The notes beneath the pieces were generated by a model. It was given only the letters and a program-made list of their open reading frames with translations. It was not told where the DNA came from and ran no database searches. DNA of 64,000 bases from NCBI RefSeq assembly GCF_021284765.1, contig NZ_CP089924.1, positions 4,420,001 to 4,484,000 of the forward strand, given 5' to 3'. Made by a program: the position numbers and the translations under genes. Below are positions 26,630-32,063 of the stretch, piece after piece (position 1 is the first letter of the stretch; every line of letters begins with the position of its first letter). Source of the DNA: Lysobacter sp. 5GHs7-4 (lineage in GTDB: Bacteria > Pseudomonadota > Gammaproteobacteria > Xanthomonadales > Xanthomonadaceae).

Positions 26630-28831
26630 TCAGTCGGCCCAGTGGCCCGGCTTGTTGGCGGTCGGCAGCACCTGCGCCGACAGCTGGCGGTCGTCGTTGA
26701 GCAGGCGCACCGCGTCGGCCAGGATCGAGGCGGACTCGCGCAGCAGCGGATCCGGGCGCTTTTCGGCGGCCTTCTCGCGCGCCACTTCCTGGGCCAGGTT
26801 GCGCTCGCTGGACTGCAGGCCGTCGTCGCCGTTGTCGTCGGCCAGCGGATCCAGGTCCAGGCCCATGGTCTTGCGCTCGGCCTGGCGCTGCTTGCGCTTG
26901 GCGTCGTCGCGGTCGCGCTCGGCGCGGCGCTCGGCCTCGTTGAGCGTGATCGACTTCTTGGCGCGCTCGGTGCGGAACTCGGTCACGTCCTGCGACCACC
27001 ACTGGAATTCCTTGTCGTTGGCGACGCGGCTGTCGTGCAGCGCCGACAGCTTGGGCAGCAGCGGCGCGAAGTTGCCGTAACGCACGTGCGGCACCGGCGC
27101 GATCTTGGTCCAGGGCAGCGCGTTGTCGTAGGTGCTCTCGCCGTATTCGCTGGCGTCGACCGAGGCCGGGAACGACAGGTCGGGCACCACGCCCTTGTTC
27201 TGGGTGGAACCGCCGCTGACGCGGAAGAACTGGGCGATGGTCAGCTTGACCTGACCGAAGCGCGGGCCTTCGTTGGCCGGCCAGCGGTCCAGGTCCAGCA
27301 TGTTCTGCACGGTGCCCTTGCCGAAGGTGGTCTCGCCGATCACCAGGCCGCGGCCGTAGTCCTGGATGGCGCCGGCGAAGATCTCCGAAGCCGAGGCCGA
27401 ACCGCGATTGATCAGCACCGCCAGCGGACCTTCCCAGGCGATGCCGGAGTCGTCGTCGCCATTGACCTCGATGCGGCCGCCCGACTGGCGCACCTGCACC
27501 ACCGGGCCGCGGTCGATGAACAGACCGGTGAGTTCGATCGCCTCGTCCAGCGAACCGCCGCCGTTGTAGCGCAGGTCCAGCACCACGCCGTCGACCTTGT
27601 CGGCGCGCAGCTTGGTCAGCAGCTTGCTGACGTCGCGCGTGGCCGAGGCGTAGTCGGCGCTGTTCTTGCGACGGCCTTCGAAGTCCTGATAGAAGCCGGG
27701 CAGCTTGATCACGCCGATGCGCTTGGCCGGGACGCCGCCGGCGGCCGGGATGGTGATGATCTCGGACTTGGCGGCCTGATCTTCCAGGCGCACCTTGTCG
27801 CGCACCAGCACCAGGCGGTTGGGCTTGCTGTCCAGGCCGGCTTCGGCCGGGATCACGTCCAGGCGCACCTTGGTGCCCTTGGCGCCGCGGATCTTGGCGA
27901 CCACGTCGTCGATGCGCCAGCCGATCACGTCTTCCATCGCGCCGCTGTCGCCCTGACCCACCGCGACCACGCGGTCGCCGGCCTTGATCTTGCCGGAGTT
28001 GCCGGCCGGACCGCCGGGCACGATCTCGCGGATCGCGACCACGTCGTCCTGCTTCTGCAGCACCGCGCCGATGCCTTCCAGCGACAGCGACATGGTCATG
28101 TTGAAGTTGTCGGCCGACTTGGGCGTGAAGTAGTCGGTGTGCGGATCGATCGCGTTGGCGTAGCTGTTGACGAAGGTCTGGAACACGTCCTCGCTCTTGA
28201 GCTCGGAGAAGCCCTTGGCGAGATTCTGGTAACGCTTGTCCAGGGTCTTGCGGATGTCCTCGGGCTTCTTGCCGGCCAGCTTCAGGCGCAGGTAGTCGTT
28301 ACGCACCGACTGCCGCCACAGCGTGTCCAGCGCGGCGGTGTCGGCGGCCCACGGCGCCTTCTCGCGGTCGTACTCGAAACGGTCGCTGCCGTCGAAGCTG
28401 AAGATGTCCTGCTTGAGCAGCGCGCGCGCATAGGCGACGCGTTCGTCGACGCGCTGCTTGAAGGTGGCGAAGATCGCGTAGGCCGGGCTGAGGTCGCCGC
28501 CGCGGATGGCGTCGTCCAGCTTGGTCTTGTAGGCGTCGAACTTGGCGATGTCCTGGGCGGTGAAGTACTGCTTGCCCGCGTCCAGCGATTCCAGATAGCG
28601 CTTGTGCATGTCGGCCGACAGCGCGTCGTCGAGCGCGCGCGGACGGTAGGCGTAGCGGCTGTCGGACAACACGCCGTAGACCAGCTTGGCGGCGGTGGCC
28701 TGATCGGCGGTCGGCGCGTTGGTCAACGCGTTGGGAGCGCCGCCCGCGTCGGCGCGCGCGAGCAGCGCGAGCGGGGCGGTCAGCATGAAGGCGAGCAGAG
28801 TGGTCTTGGCGGTCATCGCGGGGGTCTTCAT
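26630..28831 (-). CDS. prc: Carboxy-terminal processing protease Prc/Tsp, S41 family
   Basis: A 733-residue periplasmic protease that trims or degrades proteins from the C-terminus, including peptidoglycan hydrolases and tagged proteins. A signal peptide covers residues 1-29. The order is an N-terminal helical domain (40-235, with the DPHTDYFTP motif), a PDZ domain (about 245-330), and the S41 catalytic core (about 360-570). The Ser-Lys dyad is intact: Ser480 in GSASASE and Lys505 in TFGKGT, with Asp491 25 and 14 residues apart as in E. coli Prc. A charged C-terminal DUF3340 region (600-733) follows. An S41 paralogue lies upstream on the same strand, 225 bp away, so the two may be cotranscribed. 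Confidence 0.93.
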   Translation of the reverse strand: MKTPAMTAKTTLLAFMLTAPLALLARADAGGAPNALTNAPTADQATAAKLVYGVLSDSRYAYRPRALDDALSADMHKRYLESLDAGKQYFTAQDIAKFDAYKTKLDDAIRGGDLSPAYAIFATFKQRVDERVAYARALLKQDIFSFDGSDRFEYDREKAPWAADTAALDTLWRQSVRNDYLRLKLAGKKPEDIRKTLDKRYQNLAKGFSELKSEDVFQTFVNSYANAIDPHTDYFTPKSADNFNMTMSLSLEGIGAVLQKQDDVVAIREIVPGGPAGNSGKIKAGDRVVAVGQGDSGAMEDVIGWRIDDVVAKIRGAKGTKVRLDVIPAEAGLDSKPNRLVLVRDKVRLEDQAAKSEIITIPAAGGVPAKRIGVIKLPGFYQDFEGRRKNSADYASATRDVSKLLTKLRADKVDGVVLDLRYNGGGSLDEAIELTGLFIDRGPVVQVRQSGGRIEVNGDDDSGIAWEGPLAVLINRGSASASEIFAGAIQDYGRGLVIGETTFGKGTVQNMLDLDRWPANEGPRFGQVKLTIAQFFRVSGGSTQNKGVVPDLSFPASVDASEYGESTYDNALPWTKIAPVPHVRYGNFAPLLPKLSALHDSRVANDKEFQWWSQDVTEFRTERAKKSITLNEAERRAERDRDDAKRKQRQAERKTMGLDLDPLADDNGDDGLQSSERNLAQEVAREKAAEKRPDPLLRESASILADAVRLLNDDRQLSAQVLPTANKPGHWAD

Positions 28832-29055
28832 GGCCGGAGCGGCCTAGGCGTCGAGGATGGTGCGGGATTGGACAAGACCACAGTGCCGAAAGTTGCCGTG
28901 CCTGTCACGCGCGGCGGTAACGGTTTCGGGCATCCGGGGGCGGATGGCGTTCAGCTTCGTGGGTTGGGCACGCGTAAAGGCGTTAGAACGACGTTAGAAA
29001 GTCGTCCCGACGCCTAAGGATGTGAACGCAAGACCGGCCGCAACGGGGCTAAAGC

Positions 29056-30960
29056 TCAGCGCGCGGCGCCCGCCGTCGCGTCGGCCAGCACCGCCGCGGC
29101 CTCGGCCAGCTCGGCGTCGGTCTGCGGTGGCGGCCCCAGCCGCGCCAGTTCGGCGCGGCGCGCCGCCAGGTTCAGCGACACCTGGCCGCGCGCGTGCGCG
29201 GCCAGGGCCTGCCGGCGTTGCTGCCAGCGGCGCAACTCGCCGTCGGCGGCCGCGCGCGCCTGGTGCGCGGCCAGCGGCACGGCCGGCGCGACCGGCGCCT
29301 TGTAGCCCGGCATGGCGACCATGCGCGGACCAGGCTTGGGCGCGGCCGCGGTATCGGCGAGCAGGCTCAGGTCCGGTGTCACGCCTACCCCCTCCAGCGA
29401 TAGCCCGCTGACCCGGAAGGCATGGGCGACGCTCATGCGCACCTGGCCGTAACGCCGCTCCTGGTTGTTCGGCCAGCGGTCCAGGTCGATCAGGTTCTGG
29501 ATGCTGCCGCGGCCGTAAGTGCGCTGGCCGACCACCAGGCCGCGGCCGTAGTCCTGCACGGCGGCGGCGAACATCTCCGAGGCCGCGGCCGAGCGTGCGT
29601 TGACCAGCACCGCCATCGGGCCGGTCCACACCGGCTCGACCTGGGCGTTCATCAGTTCGACGCGGCCACCGCCCTCGCGCAGCTGCACCACCGCCGGCGC
29701 CCGCATGAACAATCCGAACACTTCCGGCAACTGGTTGAGGGCGCCGCCCTCGTTGTCGCGCAGGTCCACCAGCACCGCGTCGACGCGCTGCGCCTGCAGC
29801 TGGCGCAGCAGCTCGGCGACGTCGCGCGACACCGAGCGGTGATCGGGATCGGTGCGCATGCGCGCGAAATCGACGTAGAAGCTGCCCGGCACGATCACGC
29901 CGATGCGCTTGCCGCCGACCTCCAGCACGCGCTGGGTGGCGCGCTGCTCGGCCATGCCGGCGCGGGCGCGTTCCAGCACGACGGTGCGCGTGGGCTCGCC
30001 GGGCAGGCTGCCGAACGGCTGCACCTGCACGCGCACGCGGCTGCCCGGACGGCCGCGCAGACGCGTCACCAAGGCGTCCAGATCGGCACCGGCGACGTCC
30101 TCCAGCGCGTCGGTCTCGCCCTCGCCCGTCGCCAGCAGACGGTCGCCGCTGCGCAGGCCGGCGCGCGCGGCGGGGCCGTCGGCGCTGAGGTAGACCAGCG
30201 ATACCGTGTCGTCGTTGCCGCGCTTGAGCGACATGCCGACACCGACGTGGTCGGGCACCGCGTCGAGCAGGCGCTGCGCGGCGGCGGACGAGTAATAGTC
30301 GCCGCCGGAATCGCTGACGCCCGCATAGGTGTTCAGGACCGCTTCGAACACCGCCTGCGGCGACGGCGCATGCGCGGCGCCCGCGATTTGCGCGTAGCGG
30401 CGTTCCAGCGTCGCGCGCACCTGCGCCGGCGTGCGGCCGGCCAGGCTCAGGTCCAGCGCCTCGCTCTTGATCCGGCGCAGCCACAACGCGTCCAACGCGG
30501 CGGCGTCCGCGGCCCAGGGCGCGGCGGCGCGATCGGGCGTCCAGTCGTCCTGGCCGCCGAAGTCGAAGCCCTGCGCGAGCAGCGCCGGCACCTTCGCCAC
30601 GCGCGCGTCCAGGCGCGTCAGCGCCAGTTCGCGCATGGCCAGGAACGGGGCGAGATCGCGTGCGCGGATCGCGTCGTCCAGGCCCTCGCGATAGCGCTGC
30701 AGCTCGCCGATATCGGCGGCGCTGAGGTAGAGGCGATCGGGATCCAGCTGCGCCAGCCAGGCGTCGAACAGTTCGGCCGACAAGGCGTCGTCCAGCGCAC
30801 GCGGCCGGTAGTTGTAGCGCTTGTCGGTGAACAGGCCGCTGACCAGGGCGATGGTGTCGGCGCGCGTCTTGACGTCGTCGGCGGCCACGGCATCGGCCGC
30901 GGGCGCCTGCAGCGCGCAGCCCCACAGGGCGAGCGCGAGGCCCGCGCGCAACACAGTCAT
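29056..30960 (-). CDS. Catalytically dead S41 (Prc-like) paralogue
   Basis: A 634-residue paralogue of the neighbouring Prc, sharing the same domains: signal peptide (1-23), helical domain with TDKRYNYRPRALDDALSA, a PDZ domain (about 235-325), S41 core (350-560), and a shorter C-terminal region. Aligning by the invariant QDYGRGLV segment, the catalytic serine is Ala459 (RSAAASE) and the catalytic lysine is Arg484 (TYGRGS), while Asp470 remains. The NGGG motif of the core is changed to NEGG. It should therefore bind substrates but not cleave them by the Ser-Lys mechanism. The frame is intact and the fold-defining segments are conserved, which argues against a decaying pseudogene. ATG at 30960 starts a clean signal peptide; an upstream ATG (30984) is less likely. 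A TATGAT -10-like element lies at about 30996-31001. Confidence 0.85.
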   Translation of the reverse strand: MTVLRAGLALALWGCALQAPAADAVAADDVKTRADTIALVSGLFTDKRYNYRPRALDDALSAELFDAWLAQLDPDRLYLSAADIGELQRYREGLDDAIRARDLAPFLAMRELALTRLDARVAKVPALLAQGFDFGGQDDWTPDRAAAPWAADAAALDALWLRRIKSEALDLSLAGRTPAQVRATLERRYAQIAGAAHAPSPQAVFEAVLNTYAGVSDSGGDYYSSAAAQRLLDAVPDHVGVGMSLKRGNDDTVSLVYLSADGPAARAGLRSGDRLLATGEGETDALEDVAGADLDALVTRLRGRPGSRVRVQVQPFGSLPGEPTRTVVLERARAGMAEQRATQRVLEVGGKRIGVIVPGSFYVDFARMRTDPDHRSVSRDVAELLRQLQAQRVDAVLVDLRDNEGGALNQLPEVFGLFMRAPAVVQLREGGGRVELMNAQVEPVWTGPMAVLVNARSAAASEMFAAAVQDYGRGLVVGQRTYGRGSIQNLIDLDRWPNNQERRYGQVRMSVAHAFRVSGLSLEGVGVTPDLSLLADTAAAPKPGPRMVAMPGYKAPVAPAVPLAAHQARAAADGELRRWQQRRQALAAHARGQVSLNLAARRAELARLGPPPQTDAELAEAAAVLADATAGAAR

Positions 30961-31028
30961 TGGATATCCCCGGCGACGTCCCATCGTCGCCGTCGATCAT
31001 ACCCGGCGCGCGGCGCCGGATTGGCGGC

Positions 31029-32063
31029 TCAGGCCGCGGCGAAACCGGCTTCGATGGCCTGGCGGTCGGCGTGGTAGGACGAACGCACCAGCGGGCCGGA
31101 GGCGACGTGGGTGAAGCCCAGCGCCATGCCGTACTCCTCCAGCGCCTTGAACTCGTCCGGCGTCCAGTAGCGCAGCACCGGATGGTGATGCGGCGTGGGC
31201 TGCAGGTACTGGCCGATGGTGATCATGTCCACGTCGTGCGCGCGCAGGTCGCGCAGCGTGGCCTGCACCTGCTCCATGGTTTCGCCCAGGCCCAGCATGA
31301 TGCCGGACTTGGTCGCGACCTGCGGGTGCTGGGCCTTGAACTTCTGCAGCAGGGTCAGCGACCACTGGTAGTCGGCGCCCGGACGCACGTTGGTGTACAG
31401 GTCCGGCACGGTCTCGACGTTGTGGTTGAACACGTCCGGCGGGCTGGTGTTCAAGATGTCCAGCGCGCGCTCCATGCGGCCCTTGCCGCGGAAATCGGGC
31501 GTGAGGATCTCGATCTTGGTGCGCGGGCTTTCGTTGCGCACGGCCTTGATGCAGTCGACGAAATGCTGGGCGCCGCCGTCGCGCAGGTCGTCGCGGTCGA
31601 CGCTGGTGATGACCACGTACTTCAGCGCCATGTCGGCGACGGTGCGGGCCAGGTTGGCCGGCTCGCTGGCGTCCGGCGGCTTGGGCCGGCCGTGGGCGAC
31701 GTCGCAGAACGAGCAACGGCGCGTGCAGACCTCACCGAGAATCATGAAGGTCGCGGTGCCGTGACTGAAGCACTCGTGGATGTTCGGGCAGCTGGCCTCT
31801 TCGCAGACGGTGACCAGCCGGTTCTCGCGCAGTTTCGCCTTGAGCTGGGCGACCGAATTGCCCGAGGGGATGCGCACGCGGATCCAGGACGGCTTGCGCA
31901 GCACCGGCGCATCGACGAACTGCACCGGCGAGCGCTGGATCTTGTCGCCGCCGAGCTGCTTGGCGCCCGGCGTCATGGTGGTGGACTGCAGCACCGCCGG
32001 CGCGTCGGGCGCGCCACCGCTGACGACCGTGAGCGGGATGGTCTTGGAGGCGGGATCGGTCAT
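31029..32063 (-). CDS. lipA: Lipoyl synthase
   Basis: A 344-residue radical-SAM enzyme that inserts two sulfurs into octanoyl groups on lipoate-dependent enzymes. The auxiliary cluster motif [12 protein letters not shown] supplies Cys87, Cys92 and Cys98; the radical-SAM motif CTRRCSFC supplies Cys113, Cys117 and Cys120; and RSSYHAD near the C-terminus carries the conserved Ser of the auxiliary cluster (about Ser328). A 30-residue N-terminal extension is longer than in E. coli. It follows lipB on the same strand; the 208-bp gap holds two palindromic repeats. It completes lipoate synthesis from octanoyl-ACP with LipB. Confidence 0.96.

Follow-up and report, generated by a model that had tools for sequence, protein, structure and literature searches.

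Introduction

Why would a bacterium keep, next to its tail-specific protease Prc, a second copy with arginine in place of the catalytic lysine? The question is posed by two neighbouring genes, prc and a prc paralogue, in a stretch of 64,000 nucleotides from Lysobacter sp. 5GHs7-4 (contig NZ_CP089924.1, positions 4,420,001 to 4,484,000), hereafter the window. Cell-wall hydrolases and stress signalling are under the control of C-terminal processing proteases, whose partners have been identified in few species. A first-pass annotation of the window had proposed that a conserved dead copy sits beside the live enzyme. We report here that the copies share a Lys to Arg exchange, that those still intact are under purifying selection and that the gene is dispensable. 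The paralogue is, in our judgement, very probably a genuine, selected pseudoprotease. As the best overall explanation we tentatively favour an ancient, patchily kept S41A/Prc pseudoprotease that would bind without cutting.

Gene pair and catalytic residues

The window genome (G000) is a single contig of 4.71 Mb with seven S41-domain places, prc and the paralogue among them. The intact 634-codon paralogue frame that the first-pass annotation had described next to Prc was recovered. On the minus strand the gene order is lipA, then the paralogue, then prc:

26630..28831, minus strand: prc, active-type tail-specific protease (S41A), 733 residues, with TSP_NTD, PDZ, S41 and DUF3340
27392..27394, minus strand: Ser480 codon TCG of Prc, catalytic nucleophile position (alignment and position arithmetic)
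27317..27319, minus strand: Lys505 codon AAG of Prc, general base position (alignment and position arithmetic)
28832..29055, minus strand: gap between the paralogue and prc frames
29056..30960, minus strand: Prc paralogue (putative pseudoprotease), 634 residues, with TSP_NTD, a weak PDZ, S41 and a shortened C-terminal domain
29584..29586, minus strand: Ala459 codon GCG of the paralogue, at the catalytic Ser position (alignment and position arithmetic)
29509..29511, minus strand: Arg484 codon CGC of the paralogue, at the catalytic Lys position (alignment and position arithmetic)
31029..32063, minus strand: upstream neighbour, which we take to be lipA (lipoyl synthase), the conserved anchor of the locus

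The listed paralogue frame opens at an ATG at position 30984; the start that aligns with relatives is the ATG at position 30960. The two proteins of the window are 41% identical over 595 columns (BLASTP, E 5e-115). Ser480 and Asp491 of Prc lie 25 and 14 residues ahead of Lys505, and Ala459, Asp470 and Arg484 of the paralogue share their alignment columns; the alignment thus bears out the first-pass placement of both triplets.

A protein search returned five close relatives of the paralogue (P0001 to P0005), all among the best 120 of 215 matches; at 53–96% identity they stand clear of the ordinary Prc proteins, which level off at 38–44%. Ten copies were compared, namely those of the window, P0001, P0002, P0004, P0005, G015, G309, G127, G306 and G078; P0003, almost identical to the G015 copy, was omitted. 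The catalytic Lys position is Arg in all ten, and the catalytic Asp is present in all ten. The Ser position is Ala in seven and Ser in three (P0002, G127 and G078). Lys to Arg is therefore the defining lesion of the group, rather than the full Ala/Arg pair: of the pair expected to be conserved, Arg is invariant and Ala is not. Restoration of Ser and Lys in most orthologues is not seen, with Lys in none of the ten. The NEGG reported in place of NGGG is right for the window copy, but Glu404 occurs in only five of the ten. Cleft glycines 405-406, Asp470 and Gln488 are present throughout.

The exchange stands out against ordinary Prc. When 129 listed proteins were read with no motif filter, 124 had Ser-Asp-Lys, four Ala-Asp-Arg and one Ser-Asp-Arg; the 124 with Ser-Asp-Lys comprise every listed homologue other than the five close relatives. 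Lys is likewise present in 55/55 Prc rows of our tree, partly by construction, as the motif used to collect them contains Ser and Lys. Locus L069 was dropped from these rows for want of the motif, and in the motif-free count it has Ser, Asp and Lys. Among 11 aligned other S41 loci, seven of CtpA type keep Ser, Asp and Lys; three are distant with unreliable alignments and one has no readable residue. Arg484 is no single-base sequencing slip, because AAG (Lys505) and CGC (Arg484) agree at none of the three codon positions, and the codons in the copies of G015, G309 and G127 are CGT, CGC and CGC.

In X. campestris Prc, exchange of Ser475 or Lys500 for Ala abolishes or significantly decreases activity (PMC6237974), and the activity of P. 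aeruginosa CtpA needs the Lys (PMC11021448). By analogy with Ala mutants of other Prc proteins, the paralogue is probably proteolytically inactive. The three copies that keep Ser beside Arg raise the alternative of an altered enzyme that still cuts slowly. We think this extremely unlikely, given the dependence on Lys of full activity in X. campestris Prc and of activity in CtpA, and the lack of Ser at the nucleophile position of the window copy.

Distribution and ancestry

Within the genus an intact copy is held by three of 20 genomes: G000, G015 (77% identity) and G309 (55% identity). Orthologues, which the first-pass annotation had recommended seeking in relatives, share the lipA-copy-prc order of G000 in G015, G309 and a genome of another genus, G127. 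Lysobacter sp. cf310, which carries the copy, is the only match among the named genomes, a collection from which records close to that of the window may be missing. Further Arg copies are those of G127 (601 residues, between lipA and prc), G306 (631 residues) and G078 (439 residues), the last two on a different contig from prc.

Across the family at least six of 395 genomes hold a copy, a lower bound in that three first-look candidates were scored per genome. Ten family genomes gave two matches in the first scan, and six of these hold an Arg copy. The other four were rejected as artefacts of splitting or fragmentation: a single Prc accounts for both matches in G084 (where the pieces share one frame) and in G004 and G011 (where their frames differ), and the second match of G023 is a 391-residue fragment with Ser, Asp and Lys. 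G080, with two matches in a separate scan only, was left out of the residue reading. In 164 genomes of the order beyond the family, the highest-scoring match (571 bits) was well short of the five longer copies (at least 767 bits), in a scan of at most six candidates per genome at a threshold of 1e-150 that could miss short or divergent copies. G585, from another family of the order, has two Prc-like places of near-equal score (509 and 506 bits).

A tree of 65 rows places the ten copies together as a single clade (support 100/100) inside the Prc radiation of the family. The clade persists (100/99) after removal of 92 active-site-flanking columns and the short G078 row. A recent tandem duplication, grouping Lysobacter copies with Lysobacter Prc rows, is rejected by the tree and the approximately unbiased (AU) test (p 1.8e-5); the paralogue is thus no recent duplicate of the neighbouring prc. 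Separate duplications in three other genera, those of G127, G306 and G078, with each copy grouped with its own Prc, were also rejected (AU p 7.7e-6, 1.7e-4 and 0.004), these rows being long branches and the test subject to the same model pull. The branches are long, so the attachment point of the clade (88/74) is approximate. On this phylogeny, the copies appear to stem from one old duplication, older than the genus and within the Lysobacter family (GTDB).

Loss and gene turnover

The lipA-prc interval was checked in all 20 genus genomes. Three further genomes have C-terminal remnants there: G229, where 68 residues of the C-terminal end match P0004 at 92.6% identity (E 6e-36), and G138 (E 3e-12) and G090 (E 5e-7), with decayed ends closest to P0005 and the G309 copy. 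The intervals of the other 14 gave no remnant at E 1e-3; in a shuffled-gap control one match among 380 reached 4e-4. Intact copies and remnants both occur in relatives whose Prc is 98-99% identical to that of the window and in relatives at about 83%, a pattern that we read as presence of the gene in the common ancestor followed by repeated loss. The gene is dispensable. With 17 of the 20 genomes lacking an intact copy, and remnants showing loss in three, the paralogue is no obligatory partner of Prc, and any effect it has on Prc must be optional.

The same gap holds other genes elsewhere. In L116, L115 and L111 (G263, G273 and G293) it contains an antisense gene of 289-290 residues; the G263 protein matches DUF6973 (41.8 bits, cut-off 27), and towards its C-terminus it resembles the signal domain found in type IV secreted effectors of Xanthomonadales. 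In L112, L110 and L109 (G116, G252 and G241) there are antisense frames with a lipoprotein-like signal peptide, mutually similar by eye, of 133 and 135 residues and longer in G252; the G116 frame has no Pfam match. Given these frames and the DUF6973 gene, the lipA-prc gap is a site of frequent gene turnover.

Selection on the intact copies

By the Nei-Gojobori method, the nonsynonymous (dN) and synonymous (dS) divergences between G000 and G015 and their ratio are 0.153, 0.386 and 0.395 for the copy, 0.013, 0.147 and 0.091 for Prc, and 0.015, 0.215 and 0.069 for lipA; the dN of the copy is some 12 times that of Prc. For G000 against G309 the ratios are 0.613 (copy) and 0.428 (Prc). Codon maximum likelihood (ML), on the three taxa G000, G015 and G309 only, gave omega values of 0.168 for the copy, 0.100 for Prc and 0.037 for lipA, and rejected omega = 1 for the copy (2dlnL 332, a cost of 166 log units). 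The two methods differ in magnitude and agree that the intact copies are constrained, less so than Prc. The frames of all six copies read from DNA (G000, G015, G309, G127, G306 and G078) are intact. The purifying selection and intact frames by which the first-pass annotation had proposed to judge the copy are both found, and the intact copies are under purifying selection. Ratios by domain are lower for the PDZ and C-terminus, for the G000 and G015 pair alone, and we claim nothing from them.

These values bear on the alternative of a paralogue that is simply decaying towards loss. The three remnants in the genus, the high dN and a whole-gene Nei-Gojobori ratio of up to 0.61 would suit it, but the six open frames, the rejection of neutrality and an old lineage still predicted to fold speak against it. 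We therefore consider decay, already disfavoured, to be quite improbable.

The dS of the copy exceeds that of the flanking prc and lipA in the G000 and G015 comparison. Strain-to-strain exchange or weaker codon constraint could account for this.

Domain architecture and predicted fold

Pfam places TSP_NTD and S41 above cut-off in both proteins. PDZ_6 scores only 20 bits in the paralogue (cut-off 27); the PDZ is nonetheless aligned and structurally predicted. The S41A order of domains (TSP N-terminal, PDZ, S41 core) is present, with the PDZ match weak, and the Ser-Lys dyad of S41A is absent. DUF3340 is matched in Prc only; the C-terminus of the paralogue is shortened yet alignable, and the G309 copy scores 24.4 bits against a cut-off of 28.6. 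The alignment shows the PDZ-pocket Leu to be retained. Structure modelling predicts a Prc-like fold for the paralogue.

The paralogue is presumably secreted to the periplasm. Cys15 is invariant in six aligned Lysobacter-type copies and absent from the signal peptide of the window Prc; it possibly carries a lipid anchor, a signal peptidase I site being equally plausible by eye. No tetratricopeptide repeat (TPR) is among the Pfam matches.

The G078 copy (L085, 859-2175, plus strand) is missing the greater part of the PDZ and of the latter half of its N-terminal domain, but retains an S41 core in which Ser and Arg are present.

A neofunctionalised periplasmic binder, unrelated to Prc substrates, would reuse the S41 fold for another ligand, as IRBP does. 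The IRBP/RBP3 modules differ from the paralogue in being distant eukaryotic retinoid binders, and are not known to have a PDZ. We regard this reading as unlikely, since the gene stays between lipA and prc in G000, G015, G309 and G127 and the cleft glycines, Asp470 and Gln488 are kept in all ten copies.

Expression and possible partnership with Prc

The paralogue is probably transcribed together with lipA and prc. In X. campestris, prc sits in a four-gene operon of which one member, XC_0713, serves lipoic acid synthesis (PMC6237974). Around positions 28791-28959, 171 bases align at 94% identity to DNA upstream of prc in G190, a genome with no paralogue; prc has therefore retained its own leader. 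Nothing useful came from scanning the locus for promoters, terminators and Rfam families.

Adjacent same-strand genes and a predicted Prc-like fold also suit a mixed-oligomer regulator, in which the paralogue would assemble with Prc and lower or retune its activity as a dominant-negative subunit. In vitro, X. campestris Prc is found in monomeric and trimeric form, of which the monomer alone binds and degrades the sensor VgrS (PMC6237974). E. coli Prc, in contrast, is monomeric (PMC5686067). A dN of 0.153 against 0.013 for Prc is fast divergence, unlike that of an obligate subunit. Nor are we aware of a solved Prc:Prc interface in this group. On balance a mixed oligomer seems to us improbable.

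Comparison with known systems

Compared with Prc/Tsp (MEROPS S41A; E. coli, X. campestris), the paralogue has Lys to Arg, Ser to Ala, altered hinge Leu residues, a shortened C-terminal DUF3340 and a weak PDZ score. It resembles Prc made inactive by engineering (E. coli K477A; X. campestris S475A/K500A; PDB 5wql, 8xud), in which the same positions are changed; SAAASE and FGAGT of 8xud align closely with SAAASE and YGRGS of the paralogue. Those are laboratory mutants, whereas the paralogue arose in nature and shares 41% identity with the Prc beside it. E. coli Prc-K477A held a co-purified peptide in its cleft (PMC5686067), and X. oryzae Prc stabilises DppP instead of cutting it, according to the introduction of PMC6237974.

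A duplicated protease with a dead copy is also seen in MamE and MamO of the HtrA family, where MamE proteolysis appears to require the presence of MamO and not the MamO triad; in that family a duplicate lost its function on three occasions (PMC4794232). HtrA proteases are unrelated to Prc and MamO is also metal-binding; for the paralogue, the parallel consists of adjacency to prc in some lineages. NlpI (for Prc) and LbcA (for CtpA) offer a possible logic, that of a non-catalytic partner controlling a C-terminal processing protease, but they are lipoprotein TPR adaptors unrelated in sequence. The G000 genome has no match to NF008391/PRK11189, presumably the model of NlpI, the E. coli adaptor. 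No natural dead Prc paralogue was found described in listings of open-licence PMC papers. Pairs of a live and a dead protease are well documented for HtrA, and a Prc counterpart, defined here by its lesion, ancestry and selection, would be new.

Proposed mechanism

The lesion, ancestry, selection, losses and predicted fold rest on the present analysis. From the findings on X. campestris and E. coli Prc we infer an inactive, probably co-transcribed paralogue that most likely binds Prc clients or Prc itself. A single old prc duplication within the Lysobacter family would have been followed by early fixation of Lys to Arg, with Ser to Ala later in most lineages, and by retention under selection in a few lineages and loss elsewhere. 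The PDZ and cleft of the paralogue may then engage C-terminal tails or Prc partners, and it may shield, hold or present bound clients, so tuning Prc output. A role as adaptor, decoy or regulator, as first suggested for the gene, is conceivable. We see this non-cutting binder as a realistic possibility.

Several observations weigh against it. The hinge leucines L245 and L340 of E. coli Prc sense the PDZ ligand (PMC5686067, PMC6686036); the L245 equivalent is lost in 8/9 copies having a residue there, and that of L340 is Leu in two of the ten copies, Met in four, Thr in one and absent in three. The G078 copy is without most of the PDZ region, most of the genus is without an intact copy, and Lys to Arg itself is not among the mutants described in the available portions of the cited Prc/CtpA work.

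A bolder form of the same idea is a natural pseudo-Prc lineage, the first of its sort: substrate-trapping, possibly lipid-anchored, with Lys to Arg as its hallmark, arisen once in the family and acting where the NlpI adaptor is missing, as an extra control over Prc-dependent envelope proteolysis in some species. This we consider doubtful.

Conclusions

A natural Prc without its catalytic residues, selected for longer than the age of the genus and lying beside the live enzyme, provides a test of non-cutting Prc tuning. As a naturally evolved Lys-less Prc, the paralogue would be useful for substrate discovery, and its patchy presence gives natural deletion controls, such as G229 (Prc 98.6% identical, copy lost). 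That a dead copy is so old and still selected suggests a separate function for a form of the protease that does not cut.
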